Source: Dechloromonas sp.
GTDB lineage: Bacteria; Pseudomonadota; Gammaproteobacteria; Burkholderiales; Rhodocyclaceae
Assembly (NCBI GenBank): GCA_016790815.1
Contig: JAEUOG010000061.1
Span: 1-38,269, forward strand
Direction: 5' to 3'
Length of the DNA: 38,269 bases
Every line of letters begins with the position of its first letter. Position 1 is the first letter of the stretch. The translations under genes were made by a program, and so were the position numbers. The notes beneath the pieces are model-generated. The model was given only the letters and a program-made list of their open reading frames with translations. It had not been told where the DNA came from and did not search any database. Shown here in pieces: positions 199-28,380 of this stretch.

Positions 199-234
199 CT
201 GCGGTGAACCGGAAAAAACGGCCAAAAATGAAAT
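199..234 (-). repeat. 36-bp element, copy A
   Basis: Read on the minus strand this is the closest copy to the consensus built by eye from the four intergenic copies (one difference in 36, no gaps). It begins ATTTCATTTTTGG, passes through CCGTTTTTTCCGG and ends TTCACCGCAG. It lies about 30 bases downstream of the stop codon of the minus-strand tonB gene, in the same orientation. Other copies: 7042-7077 (minus), 10179-10214 and 16102-16137 (plus). Confidence 0.75.
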
Positions 235-262
235 CCGCGTTGTTGATCCGGCAGGTTATCGC

Positions 263-940
263 TTAATTATCCAGCCGGAACAGCACGGGCACGATGACTG
301 TCGCCTCTATGGCTTCGTCGCCACGCCGGGCCGGCACGAATCGCCAGTGCAGCACACTTTGCCGTGCCGCCTCGTCCAGCCGGTCGTAAGCGCTGCTTTT
401 TTCGATGTCGACCGCCGCAGCCCGGCCATCGGCAGTCACCCGCACCTTGAGCAGCACCTTGCCCTCCTCGCCCAGCCGGCGCGAGATCGACGGGTAATTG
501 GGCTCGGGATTGTTCAGGTAAGCAGCATTGAAACGCGGCGCGCTGACCGTGGCCGGTGCCGATGCGGCGACCGGGGCGGGGTTGGCGGCGGGCGGTGCGT
601 TCGGTGCGACGACGGCCGGCGCTGCTGGCACGGAGAGGGCTGCCGGGGCGCTGGCCTGCTCTGGCCGCACGGCCAGGATGGGCCGTGGCGTGGGCTTTTC
701 CCGCTGTGGCTTGGCAGCGGCGGGTTTTTCCGGCGCGGCAGGCGGGATGACCTGCGGGGCAGCGATTTTTTCAGCGAGTTGAACCGTTACCAGGAGGGGC
801 GCAGGCTCGCGCCGGTCCACATCCAGCGTTTGCGGGTAGAGCAGAACGGCCAGGTGCAGTGCGATGGCGATCAGGAAATATCGGCTGCTGTGCCGCCACT
901 CGGCTGTTTTGGGCTGGGGAGGGCAAGGGCCTGCGGTCAT
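263..940 (-). CDS. tonB: TonB-family energy transducer (paralogue 1)
   Basis: TonB transmits proton-motive-force energy from the ExbB-ExbD motor in the inner membrane to outer-membrane receptors. The 225-residue product has a short basic N-terminus, one membrane anchor (FLIAIALHLAVLLY), a long Pro/Ala-rich periplasmic spacer and a C-terminal TonB domain (YPSISRRLGEEGKVLLKVRV... WRFVP) ending VIVPVLFRLDN. I chose the ATG at 940. An upstream GTG (979) would add 13 residues ahead of the anchor. A TATAAT hexamer sits only a few bases upstream of this ATG on the minus strand, so the message may have almost no leader. It is divergent from a second tonB at 1050 whose C-terminal domain is closely similar, and a copy of the 36-bp element lies downstream. 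The family call is firm; the receptor it serves is unknown. Confidence 0.9.
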   Translation of the reverse strand: MTAGPCPPQPKTAEWRHSSRYFLIAIALHLAVLLYPQTLDVDRREPAPLLVTVQLAEKIAAPQVIPPAAPEKPAAAKPQREKPTPRPILAVRPEQASAPAALSVPAAPAVVAPNAPPAANPAPVAASAPATVSAPRFNAAYLNNPEPNYPSISRRLGEEGKVLLKVRVTADGRAAAVDIEKSSAYDRLDEAARQSVLHWRFVPARRGDEAIEATVIVPVLFRLDN

Positions 941-1049
941 CGGCCGATTATATCCGCCGGCCCTGTGACAATTTGCCACATCGGCAATCCGGCCCTGACT
1001 GCTTAGAATCCGCGTCTCGTTAAGTTTCTGTTTTTCAACGTTTTTTAGT

Positions 1050-1745
1050 ATGGATCAAGAGCCGCCCGTGACCGCGCTTGTTTTGCCACCGCTCGATTGC
1101 CGGGAAGTGCCCCTTTCCCGTGGCGAACGCCTCGCGAATGCCACGCTGGTCGTCCTGCTGCATCTCGCGCTGGCCTACGCCATGCTGTACGTCTCGGTCA
1201 GCAACGATCTGATCGCCCTGCCGCCAAGTATCAGCGTCCGCCTGTTGCCGATGATCGAAGAAAAAGTCGAGCCGGCCAAGCCGCTGCCGCCACCTCCCAA
1301 GCCGGTGCCGCAGGTGCGGAAGCCGCCGGTCATTCGGCCGCAACCCGTTCTTGCCGTAGCGAGCCCGGCCGCGACGAGCAGTTTTACTGTCGCACCCCAG
1401 CCGCCGGCCCCGCCGCCGCAGCCTGTCGTTGCCGCGCCGCCCGCCCCTCCGGCACCGGTTGCCGTGGTAGCCGCCCGTTTCGATGCCGATTACCTGCACA
1501 ACCCGAAACCGGTCTATCCGGCGCTTTCACGGCGCATGAGCGAGGAAGGCAAGGTTTTGCTGAAAGTACGCGTCAGTGCCCAAGGCACGGCGCTGGACGT
1601 GGCGGTGTCGAAATCGAGCGGCTTTCCCCGGCTCGATGCGGCGGCCGTCGAGGCAGTCACCCGCTGGCGCTTTGTGCCGGCCAAGCGGGGTGATGAGGCA
1701 GTTGATTCGTCGGTGATCGTGCCGATCACCTTTGCGCTTGAGTAG
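1050..1745 (+). CDS. tonB: TonB-family energy transducer (paralogue 2)
   Basis: A 231-residue TonB-type protein: one N-terminal membrane segment (about residues 28-48), a Pro-rich spacer with PPPPKPVPQVRKPP-like runs, and a C-terminal TonB domain with YPALSRRMSEEGKVLLKVRV and WRFVPAKRGDEAV. It heads the cluster tonB-exbB-exbD-receptor-PepSY protein, so it most likely energises the siderophore receptor encoded at 2981. The gap to exbB is 12 bases. Its C-terminal domain is obviously paralogous to that of the divergent gene at 263-940, while the spacers differ. I saw no clear Fur box between the two genes by eye. Confidence 0.93.
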   Translation: MDQEPPVTALVLPPLDCREVPLSRGERLANATLVVLLHLALAYAMLYVSVSNDLIALPPSISVRLLPMIEEKVEPAKPLPPPPKPVPQVRKPPVIRPQPVLAVASPAATSSFTVAPQPPAPPPQPVVAAPPAPPAPVAVVAARFDADYLHNPKPVYPALSRRMSEEGKVLLKVRVSAQGTALDVAVSKSSGFPRLDAAAVEAVTRWRFVPAKRGDEAVDSSVIVPITFALE

Positions 1746-1757
1746 GAAAGGAAAAGC

Positions 1758-2492
1758 ATGCATTCCCAAATGGGCCTTGCCCACTTCTGGAGCCAGGGCG
1801 ACCTGGTTACCCATACCACCGCCATCATCCTCGCCGCGTTGTCGCTGGCCTCGTGGTCGGTCATTCTCTCGAAGATGTTGTCGACCTGGCGTGCCTCGCG
1901 CTCGCAGGAGAAAGCGCTGAACGGATTCTGGGCGGCCAACTCCCTGCCCGAGGCGCTGGAAACCCTGCGCCGCGACGATCCCTCCGGCATCTTCGCCGGC
2001 CTGGCACTAACCGGCGCCCACGCCGCCCAGGCGCACCAGCAGAACGCCGCGCGCGGCATCGGTGCCGGGGTCAATGCCAGCGAATTCGTCACCCGTTCGA
2101 TGCGCTCGCAGATCGTCAACACCCAGGCACGGATCGAACGCGGCCTGACTTTTCTCGCCTCCGTCGGGTCGACCGCCCCCTTCATTGGGCTGTTCGGCAC
2201 GGTCTGGGGCATCTACCACGCGCTGGTCGGGCTCTCCGGCGCAACGCAGGTGGTGCTCGACAAGGTGGCCGGCCCGGTTGGCGAGGCGCTGATCATGACG
2301 GCGGCCGGCCTCTTCGTCGCCATTCCCGCCGTGCTCGCCTACAACGCCTTCACCCGCGCCAACCGGCTGGTCGCCGTGCAACTCGACGGCTTCGCCCATG
2401 ACCTGCATGCCTACCTGACCACCGGCGTGCGCGTCGGCGGCAACGTCAACCTGGTCGACATCGGCGCCGCCCGCGCCAGCCGGCAGGCCTGA
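1758..2492 (+). CDS. exbB: ExbB / MotA-TolQ-ExbB proton-channel subunit
   Basis: ExbB is the multi-pass inner-membrane scaffold of the TonB motor. The 244-residue protein shows the family layout: a first membrane segment at about residues 20-42, a large cytoplasmic loop, then two more segments at about 133-157 ([21 protein letters not shown]) and 178-198 ([19 protein letters not shown]). These last two carry the conserved GLFGTVWG and AIPAVLAYN signatures. A GGAAAGGAAAAG ribosome site precedes the ATG. exbD starts two bases after the stop codon, so they are co-translated. It is a paralogue of tolQ at 25128; the neighbouring tonB and receptor genes favour ExbB over TolQ. Confidence 0.94.
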   Translation: MHSQMGLAHFWSQGDLVTHTTAIILAALSLASWSVILSKMLSTWRASRSQEKALNGFWAANSLPEALETLRRDDPSGIFAGLALTGAHAAQAHQQNAARGIGAGVNASEFVTRSMRSQIVNTQARIERGLTFLASVGSTAPFIGLFGTVWGIYHALVGLSGATQVVLDKVAGPVGEALIMTAAGLFVAIPAVLAYNAFTRANRLVAVQLDGFAHDLHAYLTTGVRVGGNVNLVDIGAARASRQA

Positions 2493-2494
2493 TC

Positions 2495-2905
2495 ATGGCT
2501 TTCGGAAGCTTCGACGAGGCTGGCGTCACCCAGCCCATGGCCGAAATCAACACCACGCCGCTGGTCGACGTGATGCTCGTGCTGCTGGTCATCTTCATCA
2601 TCACCGCCCCGCTCTTTCACCAAGCCGTGCCGATCGACCTGCCGCAGGTCAACGCCACCAAGCTCGACGACAAGCCGGAAGTGATCCAGCTCGCCATCGA
2701 CATCGACGGCAAGATTTTCTGGAACGGCGAGGCGCTCGACCGGGCGTCGCTCGACACCCGCTTCGCCGCCGCCAGCGCCCGCCAGCCGGAACTGCACCTG
2801 CGCGCCGATCGCAAGGTGGCCTACGAAAAGGTGGCCGACGTGATGGCCGCCGCGCAGCGGGCGAGCATTGTAAAAATTGCATTTCTGACCGAGCCGGGGC
2901 GCTAG
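2495..2905 (+). CDS. exbD: ExbD / TolR-family proton-channel subunit
   Basis: ExbD couples proton flow to TonB movement. The 136-residue protein has the standard form: a short cytoplasmic tail with INTTPLVDVMLVLLVIF, in which Asp25 at the start of the single membrane helix is the conserved proton-relay residue, and a periplasmic domain of about 90 residues ending near AAQRASIVKIAFLTEPGR. It directly follows exbB. Family membership is clear; the adjoining tonB and receptor place it in iron/siderophore import. Confidence 0.94.
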   Translation: MAFGSFDEAGVTQPMAEINTTPLVDVMLVLLVIFIITAPLFHQAVPIDLPQVNATKLDDKPEVIQLAIDIDGKIFWNGEALDRASLDTRFAAASARQPELHLRADRKVAYEKVADVMAAAQRASIVKIAFLTEPGR

Positions 2906-2980
2906 CCGTCACGGTGTTTCGTGGGCCGCCGTCGGGAGGCTGGGGTTTTGTTGTTCAAAATATCAAAAGGGGAAAATCGC

Positions 2981-5131
2981 ATGCAGGAGCTTCGATTCAA
3001 ATTGTCGCCGGTAGCGCTTGCGGTACTGGGTGGCCTGGGGTGTCTGGGTGGCTTGCCGGCCCAGGCTGAGGAGGCCAGGGAATTGTCGACGGTCAAGGTC
3101 AGTGGCGAGCGGGATACGCGCGTCGTGCCGCTCGATTTGCCGGCCAGCACGGGCTCGCGCCTCGGCGTTACGATCAAGGAAATTCCGGCCAGCGTCGATG
3201 TCCTCAGCCAGGAAGTGATGCAGGAACGCGGTGACCGGACGATGGTGGAAGCGGTTGGCAAGGTTGCCGGCATGAACGGTGCCCGGGTCGGCGGTTCGCA
3301 TACGGGCTTTTCGGTGCGCGGCTTCATCGATAACGGTGTTACCTGGCTTTACAACGGCGTACGGGTTCCCGGCGGCTCCAACATGTCTTCCCGCATTCTT
3401 GATACGGCCAACTACGACCGCATCGAAGTCCTGCGTGGCCCGGCAGCGGTGCTCAATGGGGAGGGCGGCACGGGTGGAACGATCAACCTGATTTCACGGG
3501 CGCCCAGTTTCGCGGCGCAGCCGTTCGAAGTCGACTACGCGTTGTCCAGCTACAACTCGCATCGCTTCCATGCCGGTACCGGCGGCGCCATCAAGGATGA
3601 CGCCGTGGCCTATCGTGCCGATATCAGCACCAATCGCTATGGCAGCCATGTTGACGGCGAACGTACGACGCTCGACCGGTTTACCGGTTCGGTACTTTTC
3701 AAGTTCAGCGATACGCTGAAACTGACACTTGAGCTGGACAAGATGCGCGACGATGTCAAAGACTTCTACTACGGCACGCCGCTGGTCAACGGCAAGATCG
3801 ATCGTTCTCTGCGCGACATCAATTACAACAACCTGACCGACAACGTGTACGAGTCCGACACCACCTGGCTGCGGGCCAATCTGGAGTGGCATGCAACGCC
3901 GGACATCGAAGTGCGCAACCAGATGTACTACTACGACTCCTTCCGGAACTGGCGCGATGTAAACGATTTCAAATACAACGCGGGCGCTGTTCCCACGGTC
4001 ACGCGGACGACCTGGTCAGACCTCGATCACGATCACCAGTTGCTCGGCAATCGGCTGGATGTGTTGTTCAAGGGGAAGATCGGCGGCCTGGATAATCGTT
4101 TCCTGATTGGTGCTGACATCAACCGCACGGACTACAAGACGAATCGCAACGGCTTCCCGACTGGTGTCGAGGCGCCGGTGAATGCCTATTCCCCGCCGGC
4201 TGTGAATTTGAGTAGCGGAACCAATATTTTCAAGGCTCTGGCGCGCGACATCACCATCGAACAGACGTCGGTTTTCGTCGAGGACCAGTTGTCCGTCACG
4301 AAGAATCTCAAGCTGGTCGGCGGTTTGCGCCACGACCAGTTCAAGACCGAATGGATTTATTACGATCAGGCCGGTGCACCCCGCGAGACGAAGAGCCATA
4401 ACTTCAATTCCTGGCGCGTCGGTGCTGTTTACGACCTGACGCCGGAAGCCACGGTGTACATCTCCTATGCGACGGGGGTCGAACCCGGCGGCACCTTGCT
4501 CGTGCTCAACCGGAACCAGAGCCAGCTGGACCTGACGACAGCCCAGCAGCTGGAAGTCGGCGTAAAGCAGGGATTCTGGAACGGCAAGGGCGAGTGGACT
4601 GCGGCGCTCTATGACATCCAGAAAAAGAACGTATTCGTACCGGATCCGCTCGCGCCGTCGAGGCGCCTGCCGATCGGGAAGCAGTCTTCGCAGGGCATCG
4701 AACTGAGCCTTGGTCTGCGCCCCACCGAGCAGTGGCAAATCGATGGCAACATCGCCTACGTTCATGCCCGCTACGATGAGTACTCAGCTGGCAACCCGCC
4801 GGTTTCGCTGAATGGCAACGAGCCGCGTCTGGTCCCGAAATGGATGGCCAACCTCGGCGTCCGTTACATGCCGACCGCCGCCTGGACCTTTGCTGCCTGG
4901 GCAAGGCATGTCGACAAGGCCTACATCAACGACGCCAATACGCTAGAACTGCCGGCCTACACGACGCTCGACCTGTCGGCGGACTACAAGCTCAGCAAGT
5001 CCATGGACGTGGGCTTCCGCGTGCGCAACGCTACCGACGAGCTGTATGCCGAGTCGTCGTATGGCCAGGCTGCCCAGGTGATGATTGCCAATCCGCGAAC
5101 CTATGAGCTGTCGCTGCGCATGCGGTTCTGA
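2981..5131 (+). CDS. TonB-dependent siderophore-type outer-membrane receptor
   Basis: An outer-membrane gated beta-barrel that imports a ferric chelate. I start it at the ATG at 2981, preceded by AGGGGAAAA. This gives a proper signal peptide (about residues 1-29, ending PAQA) and 716 residues; a GTG at 2921 would add 20 residues before the signal. After the signal comes a TonB-box-like ELSTVKVSG. The plug follows (IKEIPASVDVLSQEVMQERG, FSVRGF, YDRIEVLRGPAAVLNGEGGTGGTINLISR), then a barrel ending in the usual aromatic residue (ELSLRMRF). The plug wording is typical of FpvA/FhuA-like siderophore receptors; the ligand cannot be read from sequence. It sits 75 bases after exbD and is followed by a hairpin and a PepSY-TM gene. 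Confidence 0.92.
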   Translation: MQELRFKLSPVALAVLGGLGCLGGLPAQAEEARELSTVKVSGERDTRVVPLDLPASTGSRLGVTIKEIPASVDVLSQEVMQERGDRTMVEAVGKVAGMNGARVGGSHTGFSVRGFIDNGVTWLYNGVRVPGGSNMSSRILDTANYDRIEVLRGPAAVLNGEGGTGGTINLISRAPSFAAQPFEVDYALSSYNSHRFHAGTGGAIKDDAVAYRADISTNRYGSHVDGERTTLDRFTGSVLFKFSDTLKLTLELDKMRDDVKDFYYGTPLVNGKIDRSLRDINYNNLTDNVYESDTTWLRANLEWHATPDIEVRNQMYYYDSFRNWRDVNDFKYNAGAVPTVTRTTWSDLDHDHQLLGNRLDVLFKGKIGGLDNRFLIGADINRTDYKTNRNGFPTGVEAPVNAYSPPAVNLSSGTNIFKALARDITIEQTSVFVEDQLSVTKNLKLVGGLRHDQFKTEWIYYDQAGAPRETKSHNFNSWRVGAVYDLTPEATVYISYATGVEPGGTLLVLNRNQSQLDLTTAQQLEVGVKQGFWNGKGEWTAALYDIQKKNVFVPDPLAPSRRLPIGKQSSQGIELSLGLRPTEQWQIDGNIAYVHARYDEYSAGNPPVSLNGNEPRLVPKWMANLGVRYMPTAAWTFAAWARHVDKAYINDANTLELPAYTTLDLSADYKLSKSMDVGFRVRNATDELYAESSYGQAAQVMIANPRTYELSLRMRF

Positions 5132-5148
5132 TCCAGCCGGGCCAAGTG

Positions 5149-5180
5149 CGCGGAACGAAGGCAAGGGCCGGCGTTCCGCG
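5149..5180 (+). other. Intercistronic stem-loop
   Basis: A perfect 9-bp inverted repeat, CGCGGAACG (5149-5157) and CGTTCCGCG (5172-5180), lies 18 bases after the receptor stop codon and 50 before the PepSY-TM gene. There is no T-run, so it may stabilise or process the receptor message, or attenuate transcription into the next gene, rather than end it fully. Confidence 0.4.
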
Positions 5181-5230
5181 TACCCGGCCGGGGTTTCAAT
5201 GACCCCATGGTCGGCAAACACTAAATCGGG

Positions 5231-6460: not shown

Positions 6461-6476
6461 CGAAGAAACCCGGCCG

Positions 6477-7127
6477 TCAGCCCGCCATGGCCAGATCGAC
6501 CCGGTAACTCCGCGTCGCATGCACGCCTTCCACCTTGATCGGCAGCAACACCTTGCTGCGTTCCAGCGCCTTGATGATGCGCGAGATGGTTTCGAAACGC
6601 AGGTCGGTGATGTCGGCAATGTCCTGCCGGGTTGGCAGCACGACTTGCCCGGCGTTGTCGGTGAATAGCCGGATCAGGCCAAGAACGCGATCCACCGCCT
6701 GACCGCCGCGCAGGGCGACGACTTCGGCGGCCCGTTTCTGGGCCTGGGCCAGCGAGGCGAGCAGCGAATCGCCGGCCATGGCGCTGGCGCCTTCCGGCCA
6801 CGGCGCGAGTTCGCACTGGGTGAGCGCGGTGGCCGAGAATGTGTAGCAGCCGAAGAGCATGGTCTCGCAGCCGAGGATGTCGCCGGGGATGGCGAGGCTG
6901 GCAAACGATACCTCGCCCGAAGAACCCGCGTTGTCGAGCCGGATCACCCCGCGTTTGAGCCGCCAGGCCAGGCCGTCGGCGCCGGCTTGATAGACGCCTT
7001 GGCCGGCCGCAAGTTGCCGGGCGGTTCGTACGGGGCTATTGCTACGGTCAACCGGAAAAATCGGGCGAATTTGAAATCTCCTGGCTTGAATGACAACCGC
7101 CCCGACAGAGGGCGGGGCGGTTGGCAA
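6477..7127 (-). CDS. Crp/Fnr-family transcriptional regulator, start uncertain
   Basis: A cyclic-nucleotide-binding-type sensory domain (about residues 35-125, ending near the ECELAPW-like stretch) is followed by a Crp-type helix-turn-helix: VVLPTRQDIADITDLRFETISRI, then IKALERSKVL. FNR-style N-terminal Fe-S cysteines are absent. The only conventional start in frame is a TTG at 7127, which lies beside the terminator hairpin of the upstream receptor gene, so residues 1-20 would be encoded by hairpin and repeat DNA. A cleaner ribosome site (AGGAG, 7078-7082) sits seven bases ahead of an in-frame ATT at 7070. Homology-like sequence begins only around residue 33. The regulator lies 20 bases after the copper-receptor stop and may control it. 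Function is inferred from family only. Confidence 0.75.
   Translation of the reverse strand: MPTAPPSVGAVVIQARRFQIRPIFPVDRSNSPVRTARQLAAGQGVYQAGADGLAWRLKRGVIRLDNAGSSGEVSFASLAIPGDILGCETMLFGCYTFSATALTQCELAPWPEGASAMAGDSLLASLAQAQKRAAEVVALRGGQAVDRVLGLIRLFTDNAGQVVLPTRQDIADITDLRFETISRIIKALERSKVLLPIKVEGVHATRSYRVDLAMAG
7042..7077 (-). repeat. 36-bp element, copy D
   Basis: Minus-strand copy, 30 of 36 positions matching the hand-built consensus, no gaps: it begins ATTTCAAATTCGCCCG and ends TTTTTCCGGTTGACCGTAG. It follows the receptor terminator (7095-7122) and overlaps the apparent N-terminal codons of the Crp/Fnr gene, where it would encode FQIRPIFPVDR. Confidence 0.7.
7095..7122 (-). terminator. Terminator-like hairpin after copper receptor
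   Basis: A perfect 10-bp stem (AACCGCCCCG / CGGGGCGGTT) with an 8-base loop lies 25 bases beyond the receptor stop on the minus strand. The following bases (GTCATTCAAG) are a poor T-run, so termination may be partial and allow read-through into the Crp/Fnr gene. Confidence 0.6.
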
Positions 7128-7146
7128 GACTCTGAGGCAGAGTCGA

Positions 7147-10162: not shown

Positions 10163-10190
10163 GCCGGGTTCGCCCGGCATTTCAATTTTG
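10163..10190 (+). terminator. Intrinsic terminator
   Basis: GCCGGG (10163-10168), a TTCG loop and CCCGGC (10173-10178) form a stable hairpin, followed by ATTTCAATTTTG as a T-rich tract. It would end plus-strand transcription from the Sel1 region. The T-tract is also the start of a 36-bp element copy. Confidence 0.65.
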
Positions 10191-10214
10191 ACCGTTTTTT
10201 CCGGTTGACCGTGG
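10179..10214 (+). repeat. 36-bp element, copy B
   Basis: Plus-strand copy with 32 of 36 positions matching the consensus, no gaps. It begins ATTTCAATTTTGACCG and ends TTTTTTCCGGTTGACCGTGG. It starts at the first base after a GC hairpin and lies between the convergent ends of the Sel1 region and ptsI. Confidence 0.75.
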
Positions 10215-10248
10215 GATTGGCTCCTGGGCCACTCCCCGACGGCGCGCT

Positions 10249-13754: not shown

Positions 13755-14684
13755 ATGGACGAATCCATGCGCTACGATTTACCCGATCTGCGGCTGGTTG
13801 CCGCGATAGCCGATACCGGCAGCCTGACTCGTGCGGCCGAACAGGTGCATCTGGCGCCCTCGTCGGCCAGTCACCGCCTGACCCAGCTTGAGGCTGCGCT
13901 CGGAACCCCCCTGTTCGTCCGTCATGCGCGTGGCCTGACGCCAACGCCGGCCGGCGAATCCCTGTTCCGCCACGCTCGGCAGGTTTTTGCCCAGCTCGAA
14001 CAGATGCACGCCGACCTGGCCCCCTACGCCAGCAGCCTGAATAGCCAGGTCACCGTATTCGCTAACACCAACGCCATTAATTGTTTCTTGCCTGAGGATT
14101 TGGGCGATTTCCTGCGTGAACATCCGCAAATTCGCGTCAGCCTCGAAGAGCAGCCCAGCCCGGCGATCATTCAGGCGGTTGCCGCCGGGCAAGTCGACAT
14201 CGGCGTGGTTGCCGCCGATGCAGGGCTGAGCGGCGTCGAAACCCGCCCTTACCGGCAAGACAGGCTGGTGCTGATCCTGCCGCCTGGCCATCCGCTCGCC
14301 GAAAAAAGCGAACTCGCCTTCGCCGACGTGCTGGCCGAACCCTTCGTCTGCCTGCATGCCGGTAGCGCTATCCACACCTTCATGATGAATCACGCCGCTC
14401 GCCTCGGCGGCCGGCTTGATGTCCGCATCCAAGTCCGCAGCTTCAGCGCCGTCTGCCGCATGGTTGCGGGAGGGGTTGGCATCGGTATGGTTCCGCGTTC
14501 AGCTGCGGTCGACTCGGTGAAAACAATAGAAATCAGCGACGCCTGGGCGCCGCGCGATTTGCAGCTATGCGTCCGTTCGCGGTCAACGCTGGGCTCTGCG
14601 GCGGCAGCACTCTTCGACCATCTGGCCCGCAAGGGAGGTGCGGTCTCCGTAGGGGTGACACCTGAAGGGCCAACGGGGCGATAA
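13755..14684 (+). CDS. LysR-family transcriptional regulator
   Basis: A LysR regulator of about 309 residues. The N-terminal winged helix-turn-helix reads LPDLRLVAAIADTGSLTRAAEQVHLAPSSASHRLTQLEAALGTPLF. The effector-binding domain follows, with LREHPQIRVSLEEQ, VAAGQVDIGVVA and GGVGIGMVPRSA. I start at the ATG at 13755; another ATG at 13767 is equally possible, and a GTG-type start at 13719 seems too early. It is divergent from the EamA exporter, with about 80 bases between the chosen starts, so it probably regulates that exporter; the ligand is unknown. Confidence 0.88.
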   Translation: MDESMRYDLPDLRLVAAIADTGSLTRAAEQVHLAPSSASHRLTQLEAALGTPLFVRHARGLTPTPAGESLFRHARQVFAQLEQMHADLAPYASSLNSQVTVFANTNAINCFLPEDLGDFLREHPQIRVSLEEQPSPAIIQAVAAGQVDIGVVAADAGLSGVETRPYRQDRLVLILPPGHPLAEKSELAFADVLAEPFVCLHAGSAIHTFMMNHAARLGGRLDVRIQVRSFSAVCRMVAGGVGIGMVPRSAAVDSVKTIEISDAWAPRDLQLCVRSRSTLGSAAAALFDHLARKGGAVSVGVTPEGPTGR

Positions 14685-15757: not shown

Positions 15758-16079
15758 GGGCGAGCGGTATCCAATAATCTCTAACCTGTTTCCCGGTTGG
15801 CGCGTTGGAATTCGCGATCTTCATCCGGCTGGGATTGGTTTTTGCTGAGCGCTGCTGACCTGCCTGCCTACCACCAGAGCCTTGGTTGTGGGGGTCGATT
15901 CTAGCCAATTGATTGCCTTGCGCTCGATACGCGCAATGCCTGACACCACCGGGTCGCGAACCTCAGGCAAGATGATTGCAGTTGTTTGTTTTACCTGTGC
16001 ATACCACTCGACCAGACCGTTTGGTGAGGCCGGTTGTTAAATCGAAGCGTGCAGAAATCGGCCTGGCATCGGCCAAAAG

Positions 16080-16113
16080 AAACGCCACCTGGAGGTGGCG
16101 TTTTTCATTTTTG
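16080..16113. terminator. Bidirectional intrinsic terminator
   Basis: AAACGCCACC (16080-16089) and GGTGGCGTTT (16094-16103) pair around a TGGA loop. T-runs follow on both strands (TTCATTTTT on plus; TTTCTTTT on minus). It lies about 50 bases beyond the stop of the minus-strand HerA-like gene, which it probably terminates. Confidence 0.8.
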
Positions 16114-16137
16114 GTCTTTGTTTCCGGTTGACCGCAG
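16102..16137 (+). repeat. 36-bp element, copy C
   Basis: Plus-strand copy with 32 of 36 positions matching the consensus, no gaps. It begins TTTTCATTTTTGGTC and ends TTTCCGGTTGACCGCAG. As with copy B it starts at the end of a terminator hairpin and uses the T-tract as its first bases. Confidence 0.75.
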
Positions 16138-16153
16138 CTCGCCGCTTTTCGAC

Positions 16154-17928: not shown

Positions 17929-18654
17929 ATGGCTGGTCATTCCAAGTGGGCCAATATCCAGCACCGTAAAGGTCGCCAGGACGAGAAGCGCGGTGCCGCC
18001 TTCTCCAAGATTGCCAAGGAAATTACGGTTGCCGCCAAGATGGGCGGCGGCGACATCAACTTCAACCCGCGCCTGCGTGTTGCGGTCGACAAGGCCAAAG
18101 GCGTCAATATGCCCAAGGACAAGATCGACACCGCGATCAAGAAAGGCACGGGCGAACTCGAAGGCGTCGAGTACATCGAGATCCGCTACGAGGGCTACGG
18201 CATCGGCGGCGCGGCGATCATGGTCGATTGCCTGACCGACAACAAGGTGCGCACAGTGGCCGAAGTTCGCCACGCATTTTCCAAGTTCGGCGGCAACATG
18301 GGCTCCGACGGTTGTGTGGCTTTCCAGTTCAAACACTGCGGCCAGATGATATTCGCGCCGGGTACCGACGAAGCGGCGCTGATGGATGCAGCCATCGAAG
18401 CTGGCGCCGACGACGTGACGAGCAATGATGACGGTTCGATCGAGGTTTTGACCCCGCCGAACGACTACATGGCCGTCAAGGATGCGCTCGAGGCTGCCGG
18501 TTTCAAGCCGGAATTCGGCGAAGTGACGATGAAGCCGGAAGGTGAAAACGTCTTCACTGGCGAGGAGGGCGTGAAGATGCAGAAGCTGCTCGACGCGCTG
18601 GAAAACCTCGACGACGTGCAGGAAATCTACACGACCGCCCTGATCGAAGACTGA
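17929..18654 (+). CDS. yebC: YebC/PmpR-family regulatory protein
   Basis: A 241-residue YebC-family protein with the signature N-terminus [32 protein letters not shown] and the conserved [21 protein letters not shown] and [19 protein letters not shown]. The family has been described as transcriptional regulators and, for some members, as ribosome-associated factors that relieve stalling. Its placement upstream of the ruv genes is common in proteobacteria, though here three genes intervene. The ATG follows a CAGGGAAA ribosome site. Confidence 0.95.
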
Positions 18655-19820: not shown

Positions 19821-20672
19821 ATGCAAAGTTTCTACCCTCTGCTTTTTGTCTTTCTGTGGAGCACCGGTTTCATCGGTGCCAAACTCGGCCTGCCCCATGC
19901 CGAGCCACTTTCTTTCCTGCTCACCCGCTACGGGCTGGTCATTTCGCTGATGCTCTCGATAGCGCTGCTGACCCGGGCGCCCTGGCCGGAGAGGCCGCGT
20001 GACTGGCTGCACATCGGGGTTTCCGGCGTACTCGTCCATGCCGTCTATCTCGGTGGTGTTTTCGTCGCCATCAAGCATGGCCTGCCGGCCGGGGTCACGG
20101 CGCTGGTCGTCGGCATGCAGCCGCTGCTGACGGCCTTTGGCGCAGGGTGGTTGCTTGGTGAGAAAGTGAGCGCTCGCCAATGGGCCGGGCTCGGGCTGGG
20201 TTTCGTCGGCGTCGGACTGGTCGTTTCGGGCAAGCTCGGCGACGGCGCACTGGGGCCGATGCTGATTCCGGCCGTCGTCGCCCTGCTCGGTATTACGGCC
20301 GGCACGCTGTACCAGAAGCGCTTCTGCCCAAAATTCGACCTGCGTACCGGCTCGGTCATCCAGTTCGTGCCGACCGCCATCGTCACGGCGATTGCAGTGG
20401 CCGTTTTCGAGGATTATCGGATCGAATGGACCGGTCAGTTCGTCTTCGCCCTCGGCTGGCTGGTACTCGTTCTTTCGCTCGGCGCGATCAGTCTGCTCAA
20501 TCTGCTGATTCGCAGCGGTAGCGCGGTTAACGTTGCGGCCCTGTTCTACCTGACACCGCCCACGACGGCCCTCATCGCCTATTTCATTTTTGGCGAAAAT
20601 TTGACGTTGACCGCAGCATTCGGCATGTTGGTCGCCGTGAGTGGCGTTTATCTGGTGGCGCGAAACAAATGA
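19821..20672 (+). CDS. EamA/DMT-family exporter
   Basis: A 283-residue drug/metabolite-transporter protein with ten hydrophobic segments, beginning MQSFYPLLFVFLWSTGFIGAKLGLPHAEPL and with the conserved LYLTPPTTALIAYFIFGE-like segment in the second half. It is distinct from the exporter at 12784. The substrate is unknown. The stop codon overlaps an ATG (ATGA at 20669-20672) that opens the duplicated ruvC 5' fragment. Bases 20581-20616 inside this gene match the 36-bp element at 28 of 36 positions. Confidence 0.88.
   Translation: MQSFYPLLFVFLWSTGFIGAKLGLPHAEPLSFLLTRYGLVISLMLSIALLTRAPWPERPRDWLHIGVSGVLVHAVYLGGVFVAIKHGLPAGVTALVVGMQPLLTAFGAGWLLGEKVSARQWAGLGLGFVGVGLVVSGKLGDGALGPMLIPAVVALLGITAGTLYQKRFCPKFDLRTGSVIQFVPTAIVTAIAVAVFEDYRIEWTGQFVFALGWLVLVLSLGAISLLNLLIRSGSAVNVAALFYLTPPTTALIAYFIFGENLTLTAAFGMLVAVSGVYLVARNK
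20581..20616 (+). repeat. 36-bp element-like segment inside the exporter gene
   Basis: The first 14 bases (ATTTCATTTTTGGC) and last 11 (GTTGACCGCAG) are identical to the consensus with exactly the same 36-base length; only the middle differs (28 of 36). Here it is coding, giving FIFGENLTLTA. EamA proteins often have a FGE-L-L-type motif at this place, so convergence is possible. Confidence 0.4.
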
Positions 20673-20821
20673 GCCTGGCAAGTCCCCGAATTCTTGGCAT
20701 CGACCCTGGTCTGCGGGTGACCGGTTTTAGCTTCGGCCGCGTGCTTCGCCCGCTTAACCGGCCAAGCCGGTTAGCCTGCGCTGAAGCCGAGCACCCGCCG
20801 AGTTCGCGGAGTATCAGATGA
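20669..20821 (+). CDS. Short ORF carrying a duplicated 5' end of ruvC
   Basis: Fifty codons. The ATG overlaps the exporter stop (ATGA, 20669) and the TGA overlaps the ruvC start (ATGA, 20818). Codons 7-20 read [14 protein letters not shown], identical to ruvC residues 5-18, including the first catalytic Asp. About half of these codons differ synonymously from the true ruvC copy. After TTT at 20726-20728 the sequence changes to an unrelated, structured segment encoding an Arg/Pro/Ala-rich tail. It cannot be a working nuclease. It may be the remnant of an older ruvC start left by insertion or recombination, now perhaps acting as a translational bridge. Confidence 0.5.
20730..20787. other. Nested inverted repeats in the insert before ruvC
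   Basis: An inner perfect 7-bp stem TAACCGG/CCGGTTA (20755-20773, loop CCAAG) lies inside an outer 8-bp stem GCTTCGGC/GCTGAAGC (20730-20737 with 20780-20787, one G-U pair). The fold occupies most of the extra segment separating the two ruvC beginnings. Confidence 0.5.
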
Positions 20822-21351: not shown

Positions 21352-21400
21352 GAACCTGTGTGAAATTACAGTACTTTCTCCAGAAAGAGATGACCCGGAA

Positions 21401-21982
21401 ATGATCGGAAGACTGACCGGCCTGATCGCCGAAAAGAACCCGCCGCAGATCGTGCTCGACCTCAACGGCGTCGGCTACGAGCTTGATGTGCCGATGAGCA
21501 CTTTCTACAACCTGCCGGCGAGCGGCGAGAAGGTCACGCTGCTCACGCACTTCGCGGTGCGCGAGGACGGTCATTTTCTTTACGGCTTTCTGACCGAAGC
21601 CGAGCGCTTCGCCTTCCGTCAGTTGCTCAAGGTGTCCGGCATCGGCGCACGTACTGCGCTGTCGGTGCTCTCCGGCCTGTCGGTGGGCGACCTGGCTGCC
21701 GCCGTGGCGCAGCAGGAGCTCGGCCGGCTGATCAAGGTGCCCGGTATCGGCAAGAAGACGGCCGAACGCCTGCTCCTTGAGCTCAAAGGCAAGCTGGCCG
21801 ACGCGATTGGTGGTGTTTCCCTGCATGCTGCGGTCGACGATGCAAAACAGGACATTTCCAACGCCCTACTCGCGCTCGGTTACAACGAGAAGGAAGCGGC
21901 CGCGGCGATGAAACAATTGCCGGCCGACATCGGCACCTCGGACGGTATCCGGGCCGCCCTCAAGTTGCTCTCGAAGGTCTGA
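21401..21982 (+). CDS. ruvA: Holliday-junction branch-migration protein RuvA
   Basis: RuvA tetramers bind Holliday junctions and load RuvB. The 193-residue protein shows the N-terminal OB fold ([31 protein letters not shown]), the central helix-hairpin-helix pair ([19 protein letters not shown] and [23 protein letters not shown]), and the C-terminal RuvB-contact domain ([16 protein letters not shown]). Its stop codon overlaps the start of the permease gene by one base (TGATG). Confidence 0.97.
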
Positions 21983-23037: not shown

Positions 23038-24107
23038 TTGAAACCGACAAACTGGGCCCGGGCACGACTCCTGCGGTCGACCGGATAATTGCCCCGAATT
23101 CGAAATCGGCGCAAGAAGAAGCACTCGAACGCGCCCTGCGTCCGAAGCGGCTGGCCGACTACACCGGTCAGGTCAAGATCCGCGAACAACTCGAAATCTT
23201 CATCCAGGCCGCCCGCAACCGCAGCGAATCGCTCGACCATGTCCTGCTCTTCGGCCCGCCGGGCCTGGGCAAGACGACGCTGGCCCACATCGTCGCCGCC
23301 GAAATGGGCGTCAATCTGCGCCAGACCTCTGGGCCGGTGCTCGAACGCGCCGGCGACCTGGCCGCCATCCTGACCAACCTCGAACCGCACGACGTCCTGT
23401 TCATCGACGAAATCCACCGCTTGAGCCCGGTGGTCGAGGAAATTCTCTACCCGGCGCTGGAAGACTTCCAGATCGACATCATGATCGGCGAAGGCCCGGC
23501 CGCCCGTTCGGTCAAGCTCGATTTGCCGCCATTCACGCTGGTCGGCGCCACCACGCGCGCCGGCATGCTGACCAACCCGCTGCGTGACCGCTTCGGCATC
23601 GTCGCCCGCCTCGAGTTCTACACGGCGGAAGAATTGAAGAGCATCGTCAGCCGGTCGGCCACGCTGCTCAACGCACCCATCGATCCCGAGGGCGCCTTCG
23701 AAATAGCCAAGCGTTCGCGCGGCACGCCGCGCATCGCCAATCGTCTGTTGCGCCGGGTGCGCGATTATGCCGAGGTCAAGGCCGACGGCAACATCACGCG
23801 CGGCGTCGCCGACCAGGCGCTACACATGCTCGACGTCGACCCGGCTGGGCTCGACATCATGGACCGCAAGCTGCTCTCCGCCATCATCGACAAATTCGGC
23901 GGCGGCCCGGTGGGGGTGGACAACATCGCCGCAGCCATAGGCGAAGCGCGCGACACCATCGAGGACGTCCTCGAACCCTATCTGATTCAGCAAGGCTACC
24001 TGCAACGCACCCTACGCGGCCGCATCGCAACACCGGCCGTCTATCGCCACCTCGGGCTGGCCGAGCCAGCCAGCGCGGTTGTCCGCGACCTGCTGGCTGA
24101 CCAATAA
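23034..24107 (+). CDS. ruvB: Holliday-junction branch-migration ATPase RuvB
   Basis: RuvB is the AAA+ hexameric motor for branch migration. The 357-residue protein has Walker [10 protein letters not shown] (Lys80), Walker [11 protein letters not shown], sensor 1 LVGATTRAG and the arginine finger region [10 protein letters not shown]. The C-terminal winged helix follows, with [22 protein letters not shown]. An N-terminal extension of about 25 residues precedes the usual start of homology. Start overlap with the permease is ATGA. The convergent cupin gene ends four bases away. Confidence 0.97.
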
Positions 24108-24111
24108 CAGC

Positions 24112-24552
24112 TTATTTCGCAGGCTCTGGCGGCGGCATGACGCGCGGCTTGCCTTTGTCCACGACGACGAATGTAAGCATGCGAACGGGCACTTCGCCGG
24201 AGTTGCGGAACTGATGGACCGTGCCACGTGGGTTGCTGAATGCCTCTCCGGGGCCGACTCGCCGCGTTTCCTTGCCATCCGCGACCAGATCGACAGTGCC
24301 TTCGATCACTGTGCCCAAACAATCACCGGGATGCACATGGGCCGGCGAGTAGCCGCCCGGTGCAATCGACACCGCAATGGCGTGCATTTCCTTGCTATCG
24401 TCGCCGCTGACCGGTGCCGACTGGATCGGCTTAGATTGGAAACCGGGTGTTTGTGGCATGCCCGGCGCCTGCGCGCCGACGCCCAGCGAAGTCGCGACCA
24501 GAAAACTCGCCAGCAGGCAGCGGGGGGTGTTTGTCGTCCGAGTGCGATTCAT
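24112..24552 (-). CDS. Exported cupin-domain protein
   Basis: A 146-residue secreted or periplasmic protein: Arg-rich signal peptide (MNRTRTTNTPRCLLASFLVATSLGVGA), then a single cupin barrel. Cupin motif 1 is AHVHPGDCLGTVIEGTVDLVADG and motif 2 is RGTVHQFRNSGEVPVRM. Two His plus Asp or Cys in motif 1 and the His in motif 2 are candidate metal ligands. The substrate is unknown. It is divergent from ybgC with about 155 bases between, and convergent with ruvB. Confidence 0.85.
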   Translation of the reverse strand: MNRTRTTNTPRCLLASFLVATSLGVGAQAPGMPQTPGFQSKPIQSAPVSGDDSKEMHAIAVSIAPGGYSPAHVHPGDCLGTVIEGTVDLVADGKETRRVGPGEAFSNPRGTVHQFRNSGEVPVRMLTFVVVDKGKPRVMPPPEPAK

Positions 24553-24708
24553 GGTTTTTCTCCCTTTTGTTTGTGTCGTCTTCCTGCTTTCAATTTAGCC
24601 CATGCCATCCAATCGACAAGTGCGGTGCTTGCCGGGTCAAAGACAAAATAAGTGAAGTGGAAACAGATTGTTACAGAACATTGTTGCAGCGCAAGGTAAA
24701 ATTCCCGG

Positions 24709-25127
24709 ATGAAATACGAGCCGAAACCAAACGCCTTTACCATTCCCGTCCGCGTCTATTACGAAGACACCGATGCGGGCGGCGTCGTTTATTACGCCAA
24801 TTACCTCAAATTCTTCGAACGCTGCCGCACCGAGTGGATGCGCTTTGCCGGCCACGACCAGTCGGCGCTGGCGTCCGAGGCCGGCATTGGCTTCGTGGCG
24901 CGCAAGGCGAGCTGCGAGTACCTCAAGCCGGCGCGCCTCGACGACGAGCTGATCGTCGGCCTCGAAGTCGAAAAGCTGACCCGTGTCCGCGTCATCTTCC
25001 GCCAGCACGTCCGCCGCGGCGACGTCGAGCTGGTCACCGGCACCGTCGAGATCGCCTGCGTCAACATGGCGACCATGACGCCGGCCGCCATCCCCGATTT
25101 CCTGCATCAAAAACTGGAAGCGCTTAA

Positions 25128-25131
<4 letters not shown>
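24709..25131 (+). CDS. ybgC: Acyl-CoA thioesterase YbgC, Tol-Pal linked
   Basis: A 140-residue hotdog-fold thioesterase with the YbgC signature [30 protein letters not shown] (catalytic Asp region at residues 20-22). Members hydrolyse acyl-CoA or acyl-ACP and are usually encoded first in the tol-pal operon, as here. Its stop overlaps the tolQ start (ATGA). A TAAAAT hexamer at 24697-24702 lies just upstream of the ATG, but I could not assign a convincing -35. Confidence 0.94.
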
Positions 25132-25805
<674 letters not shown>

Positions 25806-25914
25806 ACATGGCCACGCTTGCGATGACTTCGTTGGCTCTCTCGCCGTGCTGGGTGCACTGTCTCGCTCGCCGCCTCGTCCTCGCGGTGCGTGATCCGTTC
25901 TCAGGGAGGCTTAA
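25806..25914. other. Unusual 109-base spacer between tolQ and tolR
   Basis: These two genes are normally nearly contiguous. The spacer is GC-rich, with a near direct repeat of CTCTCGCCG/CTCGCTCGCC. A short ORF opens at 25808 and runs into tolR out of frame, but has no recognisable product. It looks like an inserted intergenic repeat. tolR keeps its own good ribosome site (AGGGAGG) at the right end. Confidence 0.4.
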
Positions 25915-26316
25915 ATGCGCCAGCGCCGCCTGAAAAACGAAATCAACGTTGTGCCGTACATCGACGTGATGCTCGTCCTGCTCGTTATTTTCATGGTGGC
26001 AACGCCGATGATGACGACCGGCTCGGTCGATCTGCCGGCCTCCGGCACGGCGCCGCAGAAGCCGGACAAGTACGTCAAGGTGCAGATCAAGGATGACGGC
26101 AGCCTGTCGCTGTTCAGCATCAAGGGCGACGAGACGAAGCTCAAGGGCATCAAGGAGCTCAAGATTGAACTGGCCAAGGCTGCTGACCAGAACACCCCGA
26201 TCCTCATCGCCGGGGCCAAGGACACGCAGTACAAGAACGTCATCGAAGTGCTCGATGAAGCCAAGCGCGCCGGTTTCCAGCGAGTTGGCCTGGAAACTGC
26301 CAGCGCCAGCAAATAA
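25915..26316 (+). CDS. tolR: Tol-Pal motor subunit TolR
   Basis: A 133-residue ExbD/TolR-family protein. The single membrane helix begins INVVPYIDVMLVLLVIFMVATPM, with Asp17 as the conserved proton-relay residue. The periplasmic domain ends YKNVIEVLDEAKRAGFQRVGLET. The ATG follows CAGGGAGG. It is directly followed by tolA and preceded by the odd spacer after tolQ. Confidence 0.96.
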   Translation: MRQRRLKNEINVVPYIDVMLVLLVIFMVATPMMTTGSVDLPASGTAPQKPDKYVKVQIKDDGSLSLFSIKGDETKLKGIKELKIELAKAADQNTPILIAGAKDTQYKNVIEVLDEAKRAGFQRVGLETASASK

Positions 26317-26322
26317 GTGGAC

Positions 26323-27078
26323 ATGATCCTCGACAAACCCGAAGAGCCCGGCAAGAACTACGCGCTGGCGTTCACCATCCTGGTGCACGTTGCCTTGGTC
26401 GCCTTCCTGTTTTTCGGGGTGCAATGGAAGCGCAGCAAGCCGGAGGTCATGGAAGTCGAGCTGTGGTCGCCAACGCCGATGCCGGCCCAGTACGTGCCAC
26501 CGCCACCTCCCCCGCCGCCAAAGCCGGAAGTGAAGCCGGAGCCGCTGCCCAGGGTCGAACCGAAGCCTGAGCCCGTGCTCAAAAAGCCGGACATCGTGGT
26601 CAAGGAAGAGAAAAAGAAGCCGGAACCCAAAAAGCCTGAGCCCAAGCCCGAGCCGAAGCCCGAGGTCAAACCACCGCCCAAGTTCGATTTCAGCAAGGAG
26701 CTGTCGCGCGAAACGGCTGAGCTCAAGCCGCGCCCGAATACGCAGCAGATGGCCAATGCAGCGGCGGCCGAGGCCGAGCAGCGGGCGTCGTCGAACAAGC
26801 GCGGCGTGGCCGATTACGCGAACAAGATTCGTGTCCGGATTCGCAGCAACATTACCTTGCCTCCCTCGATTCAAGGCAATCCGGAAGCGATCTTCGAGGT
26901 CAATCAATTGCCGACGCGTGAAGTCCTGTCGGTCAAACTCAAACGCTCCAGTGGCAACCCGGCGCTGGACGAGGCCATTGAAAGAGCGATCCGGAAATCG
27001 TCACCCTTGCCGGCGCCGGATGATCCTTCGCTTTTTCAACGTGACCTGACCATCAAATACAAGCCGTTAGAAGAGTAA
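26323..27078 (+). CDS. tolA: TolA envelope-spanning protein
   Basis: TolA links the TolQR motor to Pal/TolB. The product (251 residues from the ATG at 26323; a GTG directly after the tolR stop at 26317 would add two) has an N-terminal membrane anchor (YALAFTILVHVALVAFLFFGV). A Pro/Lys/Glu-rich middle with many KPEPKPE-like repeats replaces the long Ala/Lys helix of E. coli TolA. The C-terminal TonB-like domain shows ADYANKIRVRIRSNI and LKRSSGNPALDEAIERAIRKSSPLP. It is shorter than the E. coli protein, which has a much longer central helix, but short forms are usual in betaproteobacteria. Confidence 0.94.
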   Translation: MILDKPEEPGKNYALAFTILVHVALVAFLFFGVQWKRSKPEVMEVELWSPTPMPAQYVPPPPPPPPKPEVKPEPLPRVEPKPEPVLKKPDIVVKEEKKKPEPKKPEPKPEPKPEVKPPPKFDFSKELSRETAELKPRPNTQQMANAAAAEAEQRASSNKRGVADYANKIRVRIRSNITLPPSIQGNPEAIFEVNQLPTREVLSVKLKRSSGNPALDEAIERAIRKSSPLPAPDDPSLFQRDLTIKYKPLEE

Positions 27079-27093
27079 AATCGCGCGATCTTT

Positions 27094-28380
27094 ATGAAAA
27101 TGACTGCAATGTCCCTATTTTTCCGTCTCATTTTTCTGCCATTTTTCCTGTTGACCGCAGGATTCGCCCACGCCCAGCTGTCGATCGAGATTACCGGAGC
27201 CGGCGCCAACCGGATTCCCGTGACCATCGTCGATTTCCCCGGTGATCCGGCTGCCTCGCGCGTCATCACCTCGACCGTGCGTGCCGATCTGGAGCGTAGT
27301 GGCCTGTTCAAGCTGGTCGACCACAGCGGTCTGGCGCTTGACGAAAACGCACCGATCAACCACGCCGACTGGAAGGGCCGCGGTGCCGATGCGCTGGCAG
27401 CCGGCAGCATCGCGCGCAGCGCCGATGGCCGCATGGAAGCCCGCTTCCGCCTTTACGACACGCAAAAGGGTGTATCGCTGGGCGGGGCCGCCTACGTGAC
27501 CAATGCGACCCAATTGCGGGCTGCCGGCCATCGCATCGCCGATTTCATCTACGAAAAGCTGACGGGCGAAAAGGGTGTCTTCTCGACGCGCATTGCCTAC
27601 GTCGTCAAGGCGCGTGGCCAGTTCCTGCTGCAGATCGCCGATTCCGACGGCCAGAATGCCGCCACGGCGCTGACCTCAACCGAGCCGATCATTTCGCCGG
27701 TCTGGTCCCCGGATGGCGGTCGCCTGGCTTACGTTTCCTTCGAGAAAAAGAAGCCAGTCATCTACGTGCATTCGCTGGCTTCGGGTCAGCGCCACATCGT
27801 CGCCAACTTCAAGGGTTCCAATTCGGCACCGGGCTGGTCGCCGGACGGCCGCAAGCTTGCCGTGGTGCTGTCGAAGGACGGTTTCTCGCAGCTCTATTCG
27901 GTCAATGCTGACGGCAGCGGTCTGCAGCGCATCACCTCGTCCTCCGGTATCGACACCGAGCCGCGCTATTCGGCGGATGGCGGCACGATCTACTTCACCT
28001 CCGACCGCGGCGGTAGCCCGCAGGTTTACCAGATTGGTGCCAACGGCGGCGACGCCCGCCGAGTCACCTACGAGGGTAGCTACAACGTGTCGCCGCGCCC
28101 GTCGCCGGATGGCAAGAGCCTCGCCTTCATCAGCCGCCGCGAAGGCCGCTTCCAGCTTGCCGTCATGGATCTGGCCAGCCGCCAGGTGCAGGTGGTGAGC
28201 GATTCGAACAAGGACGAATCCCCCAGTTTCGCCCCCAACAGCCGCATGATCCTGATCGCCACAGAAGTGGGCGGTCGCGGCGTACTATCGGCTGTCTCCA
28301 GCGATGGCAGGATCAAACAACGCCTCTCGGTCGCCGCAGGTGATGTGCGCGAACCGGCTTGGGGTCCTTACTTCCAATAA
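27094..28380 (+). CDS. tolB: TolB periplasmic beta-propeller protein
   Basis: A 428-residue periplasmic partner of Pal and TolA. It has a signal peptide (residues 1-27, ending FAHA), an N-terminal alpha/beta domain (VTIVDFPGDPAASRVITSTVRADLERSGLF), and a six-bladed propeller made of PD40 repeats, each with a W-S-P-D-G-type core (SPVWSPDGGRLAYVSFE, APGWSPDGRKLAVVLS, NVSPRPSPDGKSLAFIS). The signal-peptide codons (27125-27160) match the 36-bp element at 28 of 36 positions. It starts 15 bases after tolA. Confidence 0.96.
   Translation: MKMTAMSLFFRLIFLPFFLLTAGFAHAQLSIEITGAGANRIPVTIVDFPGDPAASRVITSTVRADLERSGLFKLVDHSGLALDENAPINHADWKGRGADALAAGSIARSADGRMEARFRLYDTQKGVSLGGAAYVTNATQLRAAGHRIADFIYEKLTGEKGVFSTRIAYVVKARGQFLLQIADSDGQNAATALTSTEPIISPVWSPDGGRLAYVSFEKKKPVIYVHSLASGQRHIVANFKGSNSAPGWSPDGRKLAVVLSKDGFSQLYSVNADGSGLQRITSSSGIDTEPRYSADGGTIYFTSDRGGSPQVYQIGANGGDARRVTYEGSYNVSPRPSPDGKSLAFISRREGRFQLAVMDLASRQVQVVSDSNKDESPSFAPNSRMILIATEVGGRGVLSAVSSDGRIKQRLSVAAGDVREPAWGPYFQ
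27125..27160 (+). repeat. 36-bp element-like segment in the tolB signal peptide
   Basis: Ungapped 28 of 36 match to the consensus: CATTTTT near the start, TTTTTCC in the middle and an exact GTTGACCGCAG end. It is coding and gives LIFLPFFLLTA, the hydrophobic core of the signal peptide. This is the same frame as the match inside the exporter gene (FIFGENLTLTA). Confidence 0.4.

Follow-up and report, generated by a model that had tools for sequence, protein, structure and literature searches.

The stretch analysed here (the window) comprises 38,269 nucleotides of a Dechloromonas sp. contig (JAEUOG010000061.1, assembly GCA_016790815.1) and carries, between and inside its genes, copies of a short repeated element that is the subject of this report. 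A preliminary description had placed a 36-base word at four positions, all of which a 41-position weight matrix confirmed with scores of 39.6–50.6 bits. With strand given as that of the core CYRCGGTCRAC, here and below, these uptake-sequence-like sites are copy A (194–234, plus strand, 47.5 bits), between ssrA and a gene with a TonB domain (TonB_C); copy B (7037–7077, plus, 50.6 bits), between a TonB-dependent receptor gene and a CRP-like gene; copy C (10179–10219, minus, 49.5 bits), in the gap before the convergent gene of a PEP-utilising enzyme; and copy D (16102–16142, minus, 39.6 bits), between a PEP-CTERM-motif gene and a HerA-like helicase gene. The ssrA sequence is the 3′ part of a betaproteobacterial transfer-messenger RNA gene cut off at the window start (1–134), and Rfam at gathering thresholds returned nothing else in the window. 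The CRP-like gene shows weak matches to cNMP and HTH_Crp, and copy B is called intragenic within it because the start codons of our home-made gene calls, including this one, are uncertain.

The original count of four intergenic copies was too low: the window holds 13 sites of at least 14 bits, and most of the other nine lie inside genes. They occupy the 3′ part of an EamA transporter gene (20581–20621, minus, 46.1 bits), the variable N-terminus of what we take from gene order to be ruvB (23066–23106, plus, 42.3 bits), the 5′ end of tolB, presumed on the same grounds (27125–27165, minus, 39.5 bits), and an indel-prone stretch in the gene of a TolA-binding TPR protein (29271–29311, plus, 41.7 bits). 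The form CGGTCGAC recurs in ruvA, identified by a RuvA profile match (21823–21863, plus, 28.7 bits), and at three weak sites, two in called genes (18075–18115, plus, 21.5 bits; 34796–34836, plus, 27.7 bits) and one just before a called gene start (30846–30886, plus, 29.9 bits). A further weak site lies in a called gene at 14498–14538 (plus, 17.2 bits).

Across the genome to which the window belongs (G000; 2,544,949 bases in 81 contigs, 76% complete), a 17-base pattern allowing up to two mismatches matched 183 times on the forward and 176 times on the reverse strand, 359 matches altogether, against 0 and 2 for the same pattern read backwards. A sample of 438,269 bases, made up of the window and 20 stretches, each of 20 kb and drawn from a contig that has one or more perfect matches, contained 153 sites of at least 14 bits by a matrix refined and counted on this same sequence, against none in three third-order Markov randomisations and none in the reversed sequence; on the strong excess over randomised sequence in a profile search, the preliminary description is borne out. 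Even the right-hand half, as a 17-mer with up to three mismatches, occurs seven times in the window, where 0.19 matches are expected. The CYRCGGTCRAC consensus is unusually strong, in that perfect cores are in large excess (121 in the 438 kb versus 3 for the reversed control) and single-mismatch cores much less so (162 versus 127); in the low-copy genome G034 the corresponding counts are 4 versus 2 and 38 versus 50.

A logo of 59 pattern-found sites, drawn on the strand opposite to that of the preliminary description, shows a T at −2, then CYRCGGTCRAC, often with CGG behind it, and A/T positions near +15 to +18 and +26 to +29, separated by GGCC, with GAAAT at the end. The core is near-palindromic (CGGTCRACCG), the two A/T tracts are spaced 11 bp apart and the motif edges are sharp, with flanks almost free of information, which delimits a unit of about 38–41 bp.

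The core pattern TKCYRCGGTCRAC divides the 76 Azonexus/Dechloromonas genomes, our own included, into 38 with 73–687 copies and 38 with 2–47; the cut at 50 core copies falls where the sorted values jump from 47 to 73, and G028, low by this cut, yet has 90 matches with another pattern. Elsewhere in the family, 285 genomes from 67 other genera hold at most 15 core copies each (297 genomes searched, 12 of them Azonexus/Dechloromonas), as do 368 other genomes of the class (369 searched), and 40 genomes from other families of the order hold at most five matches each to a longer pattern. Likewise, the 31 tolB-region loci with a TolB identity of 72% or less carry 0 or 1 site each. The repeat is thus real, genome-wide and genus-specific. 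Culturable hosts with a dense motif in the sampled region include D. denitrificans, D. hortensis and A. fungiphilus. In a TolB tree, whose labels come from one locus of about 20 kb each (cut at 2.7 sites per 10 kb), 28 of the 47 in-genus rows were called high; the locus L076, whose four sites do not exceed 18.1 bits, was for that reason assigned to the low class by hand, three in-genus loci shorter than 9 kb (L073, L079 and L114) were excluded, and of the 31 loci with a TolB identity of 72% or less the tree includes only 3. On this tree, the high/low label must change at least 8 times, versus 16.6 for shuffled labels, and well-supported branches force four of these changes. High rows are found among early branches and throughout the genus, which fits an old trait lost several times, one gene tree being no proof of it. 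Loss would have been nearly complete in G034, a close relative (TolB 93% identical) with only eight core copies.

For gene, orientation and spacing counts, we removed three weak hits that shadow the near-palindromic core on the opposite strand, leaving 150 sites. By the home-made gene calls, 107 of these lie inside genes and 43 between them, at densities of 0.268 and 1.08 per kb, respectively; before shadow removal, the called start, itself uncertain, was no more than 100 bp away for 18 of 108 intragenic sites, and the density in gaps was 2.2 per kb between convergent genes, 1.1 between co-directional and 0.4 between divergent ones. Intergenic sites favour gene 3′ ends and convergent gaps. The proposed enrichment near gene ends is seen as a fourfold intergenic density that peaks between convergent genes, but most copies are called intragenic. 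Within genes, 85 of the 107 sites use just two reading frames (42 and 43 sites), with AAVD, VAVD, ATVD and ATVN as the commonest peptides in the same-strand frame. Orientation is balanced both in co-directional gaps (11:11) and relative to GC skew (126:113 in ten stretches sampled from each of three single-contig genomes). Neighbouring sites are spaced more evenly than chance allows, with a coefficient of variation of 0.65 over 129 gaps, compared with 0.92 (s.d. 0.07) for random placement and none of 1,000 simulations as even.

These placements bear on the idea that the word is a transcription terminator accessory or an RNA 3′-end or processing element, which the preliminary description had suggested. 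The preliminary description had copies B and C begin where a hairpin ends, which holds for C (hairpin at 10163–10178), whereas B lies 16–19 nt beyond its hairpin (7094–7123 in one fold, 7097–7115 in another prediction); copy D, said to follow a hairpin by 17 bases, does have one beside it and overlaps its tail (16078–16105), so that B and D appear to have been exchanged. The stretch beside copy A folds no better than shuffled sequence (z −1.18), nor does that beside copy C (z −0.16), though a short hairpin is present there. Genome-wide, a hairpin stands on the T-tract side of 8 of the 43 intergenic sites, compared with 7.7% of 1,500 random non-coding stretches; hairpins also occur on the other side of 6 of the 43, and 14 of the 107 intragenic sites have one on their T-tract side. 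Given this weak association, the hairpins are real but secondary. The abutting or overlapping hairpins of C and D, the preference for gene 3′ ends and convergent gaps and the T-side excess all speak for a terminator-linked role; a predominantly intragenic location and an even split of orientations in co-directional gaps are left unexplained by it, and an association of uptake sequences with terminators is already described (PMC3630211; PMC1852404). An intrinsic terminator or RNA 3′ element would have a fixed orientation at transcript 3′ ends and a hairpin, and the sites do not show this pattern, which makes the explanation scarcely credible.

Comparison of orthologous sites speaks to a second suggestion of the preliminary description, a tiny mobile or palindromic repeat akin to miniature inverted-repeat transposable elements (MITEs), repetitive extragenic palindromes (REPs) or bacterial interspersed mosaic elements (BIMEs). 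Its dispersal in hundreds of copies, its patchiness among close relatives and the indels seen at the ruvB start and certain other orthologous positions would suit such an element. On the other side stand the loss of all similarity past about 41 bp, the preferred frames of genic copies and the history of the best-aligned orthologous site, 20581, where relatives differ by substitutions. At this site, identity over the informative motif positions is 0.86 in high-copy relatives (25 alignments, 1 gapped) and 0.59 in low-copy relatives (14 alignments, 3 gapped), with flanks at 0.78 in both classes; none of the 39 alignments contains an empty site, and the largest gap is four bases. It is the best case for motif gain and loss by point change. 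Orthologous sites recur within the same genes. No ortholog alignment was obtained for the sites at 194, 7037, 10179, 14498 and 16102, the first four described copies among them, probably because the fetched stretches span only about 10 kb round tolB. An inserted unit with empty sites, as expected of a MITE or REP, was not found at 20581, other sites show short indels, and we give a mobile origin almost no credence.

The motif also differs between species and between self and foreign DNA. G000 and G042 prefer CYRCGGTCAAC with both tracts, G000 also using CGAC; G029 favours CYGCGGTCGAC and mainly the second tract; and G244 favours a T-rich lead and CACGGTCGAC. No replacement dialect appeared among the 24 most enriched 10-mers from 220 kb of low-copy G034. 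G244 additionally carries another 10–15-mer, starting AAGCCTGAGACG, about 42 times in 200 kb, far above expectation, which may be a local array. In three high-copy genomes, islands that interrupt comEC hold 1 site in 125.6 kb, versus 37 in 114.4 kb of flank (at least 16 bits with any of four dialect matrices): islands of 33.7, 43.3 and 48.5 kb in G002, G396 and G297 contain 0, 1 and 0 sites, and their flanks of 46.3, 36.7 and 31.5 kb contain 12, 11 and 14. In low-copy G043, the insert holds no site and the flank one. This contrast between self and foreign DNA would also be expected of a tag for some other transfer or defence route, such as a restriction self-label, a defence system or a packaging signal of a gene-transfer agent. 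The length and degeneracy of the motif and its form of a core plus two tracts suit uptake sequences better, and we regard such a tag as very improbable.

A chromosomal protein binding site with no link to uptake, serving nucleoid organisation, segregation, repair or recombination, could account for hundreds of evenly spaced copies, for a near-palindromic core beside A tracts that could bend DNA and for the near-absence from the three foreign islands. Chi, FtsK orienting polar sequences (KOPS) and matS-type motifs are short and either polar or regional. Like them, our motif is over-represented across the chromosome; unlike them, it is about 38 bp long, unpolarised, spread over all of the sampled stretches and readily lost from one close relative to the next. 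The orientation counts relative to GC skew likewise led us to reject a polar replication motif. Near-loss in so close a relative as G034 would be odd for a housekeeping site, and dialect shifts between species add to the difficulty, so that a chromosomal site of this kind seems unlikely.

Of the options raised in the preliminary description, that of a protein site survives, and its best reading is a recognition site for a putative DNA-uptake receptor. Uptake sequences in print are known from Pasteurellaceae and Neisseriaceae. Passages of PMC1626085 describe them as lacking orientation bias, spaced more regularly than random and preferring non-coding DNA with many intragenic copies, as having an unusually strong consensus and clade dialects, and as arising by mutation rather than insertion. 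Abundance, architecture, lack of strand bias, even spacing, restriction to one genus, dialects, turnover and island depletion together lead us to conclude that the word very probably represents one strand of a putative DNA uptake sequence of the genus Azonexus, taken broadly to include Dechloromonas. The features of that class are found here: over-representation; regular spacing with no orientation bias; a presence in coding DNA with a higher density outside it; and a motif shared among relatives with dialects and depleted in foreign DNA. We infer receptor binding, an uptake bias, a transformation step and a drive as parts of the model: a type IV-pilus-associated receptor on competent cells would bind T-N-CYRCGGTCRAC and the A/T tracts at one-turn spacing, and motif-bearing fragments would preferentially be taken up, passed to ComEC and recombined with the chromosome. 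Alleles with a good motif would be favoured in uptake, copies building up by mutation and recombination in permissive places of the core genome such as gene ends, linkers and convergent gaps, and they would decay after a lineage loses competence or specificity.

The architecture is Pasteurellaceae-like. The uptake signal sequences (USSs) of that family, of Hin-type AAGTGCGGT and Apl-type ACAAGCGGT(C), carry a pair of A/T segments 3′ of the core, spaced at about one helical turn, according to passages of PMC1626085, and passages of PMC7811141 describe the central GCGG as crucial for uptake in H. influenzae. Our motif resembles them in its many copies, in a core followed by two 3′ A/T segments at about helical-turn spacing, in the CGGT, often GCGGTC, of its core and in its unbiased orientation, regular spacing, denser non-coding placement, many genic copies and clade dialects; by eye, segment 3 of the Apl-type (AAAATTTTGCAAAT) resembles the CAAAATTGAAAT end of the Azonexus motif. 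It differs in having a betaproteobacterial host, an A or G before CGG, a longer, near-palindromic core, CGGTCRAC(CGG), and a first A/T tract about 9 bp after CGGT, where USS segment 2 lies just 3′ of the core, as well as in a lower density and few inverted pairs. With a core of CYRCGGTCRAC rather than ANNNGCGGT, the putative uptake sequence would work like a USS and is not a member of that group. The original remark that no element of this form had been described is right as to the sequence, of which we found no description, and wrong as to the form, which is that of a Pasteurellacean uptake signal sequence.

With the DNA uptake sequences (DUSs) of Neisseriaceae, the Azonexus motif shares a genome-wide signal, species dialects and terminator associations of the kind described in passages of PMC3630211, together with a host among the Betaproteobacteria in which ComP_DUS-family pilins are present. 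Its sequence is, however, unrelated to GCCGTCTGAA, which passages of PMC1626085 describe as having no flanking motifs; the logos, with an unrelated core and flanking tracts, place it outside the neisserial DUSs. Inverted pairs at terminators, frequent among DUSs in Neisseriaceae, are rare here. One tight inverted pair, at about 1501–1540 of the locus L020 (G000:C26 9724–9761), forms a long inverted repeat and resembles pairs of the terminator type known in Neisseria; the 438 kb contained just one further close pair that is not a palindromic-core shadow (L048).

A number of observations weigh against a DNA uptake sequence. Besides the rarity of tight inverted pairs, the density of one site per 2.6–2.9 kb is below the figure of about one per kb in passages of PMC1626085 for uptake sequences of Haemophilus and Neisseria. 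We found no uptake experiment on the motif, and no report of natural transformation in the genus, judged by title and abstract start among the matches listed; a search on the same basis of mainly open-access literature yielded, among the matches listed, no report of an uptake sequence in Rhodocyclales, Azonexus or Dechloromonas. Pooled over 8 of the 13 window sites, motif identity in high-copy relatives (0.786; 160 alignments, 58 gapped) is slightly below that of the flanks (0.813), which we ascribe to dialect differences and gaps. In low-copy relatives, it is 0.598 against 0.805 (107 alignments, 57 gapped), and the motif has therefore diverged more than its flanks there. Gapped alignments amount to 115 of 267, 101 of them at the sites 23066, 27125, 29271 and 30846, and several low-copy relatives are missing about 10–12 bases of the site at the ruvB start, so that sites are also gained and lost by indel; a point-mutation origin is clear for 20581 alone and mixed at others. 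The comEC islands, finally, have a lower G+C content than their surroundings (0.515–0.559 versus 0.618–0.642), which may explain part of their lack of motifs.

Among the competence genes, the presence of ComEC and of a ComP_DUS-family pilin in most genomes of the genus speaks for an uptake sequence, and other findings add further difficulties. ComEC profile matches occur in 75 of the 76 genus genomes (68 over the cut-off, the matches being split in several), and ComEA exceeds the cut-off in 67, falling below it in the high-copy genomes G000, G042, G014, G391 and G058; G391 has a PF12836 match in a 367-aa frame. By two models, the high-copy, single-contig genome G042 lacks a short ComEA-type protein, its matches lying only in frames of 834 and 1,075 aa. 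A ComP_DUS-family pilin is found in 70 of the 76 genomes and a GspH pilin in 69, and, compared by eye, both are present in both copy classes. ComEC, classified by hand with contig breaks counted as broken, is broken or unfound in 7 of 38 high-copy versus 13 of 38 low-copy genomes (p 0.19); with the comparison restricted to genomes of 90% completeness or more, the counts are 6 of 31 versus 7 of 25 (p 0.53). ComEA is below the cut-off in 5 of 38 versus 4 of 38. Since neither ComEC breakage nor ComEA tracks copy class, we reject the idea that low copy number stems from the loss of these genes. Where a high-copy genome has a broken ComEC, the break can be recent, and intact ComEC in low-copy genomes needs another cause, for example a lost receptor or lost expression.

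Several features of these genes were seen in passing. In G034 (C1:1958422–1959913), ComEC matches occupy two frames, which adjoin near position 225 of the profile, with no match to the first 156 profile positions among the matches listed. The 34-kb island that interrupts comEC in G002 (L163 8724–11533 and L165 3332–4873; G002:C33, about 108.7–144.9 kb) begins with a large serine recombinase (Resolvase, Recombinase and Zn ribbon) and encodes a CHAT-domain protein and a DUF4917/SIR2-like protein. Parts of comEC also lie 32–64 kb apart in G043, G297, G004, G396 and G387, and as the splits fall at two positions, about 145–166 and about 590 of the profile, in several genomes, comEC looks like an insertion hot spot. 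Mobile-element insertion into comM, comYC and comFA is described in passages of PMC4774983, and into comM also in those of PMC11472951; comEC is not among the insertion examples in these passages. Genes for ComP_DUS- and GspH-family pilins lie near each other (G000:C40, about 49984–56205; G042:C1, about 1087519–1088351; and relatives), at a distance of about 6–8 kb in some genomes and about 0.5 kb, mostly with weaker ComP_DUS scores, in others; by eye, neither arrangement tracks motif copy number.

We tentatively raise the possibility, doubtful as it is, that self-recognising DNA uptake exists in a third lineage, among freshwater Betaproteobacteria, with a receptor that reads the same physical pattern as in Pasteurellaceae, namely (G)CGGT(C) and two rigid A/T tracts one turn apart. 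If so, a core with phased A/T tracts would be what such a pilus-associated DNA receptor needs rather than a Pasteurellacean peculiarity, and the shared pattern would have come about through deep homology of a minor pilin or through convergence. The resemblance makes the role of the A/T tracts in uptake sequences testable in an independent lineage. A link between uptake specificity and mucosal life is raised in passages of PMC7811141, and a third, largely environmental lineage would put ideas of this kind to the test. The 76 genomes, with their full-strength sets, dialects and losses, are available for comparative work, in which asking which minor pilin varies with dialect suggests a route to the receptor.

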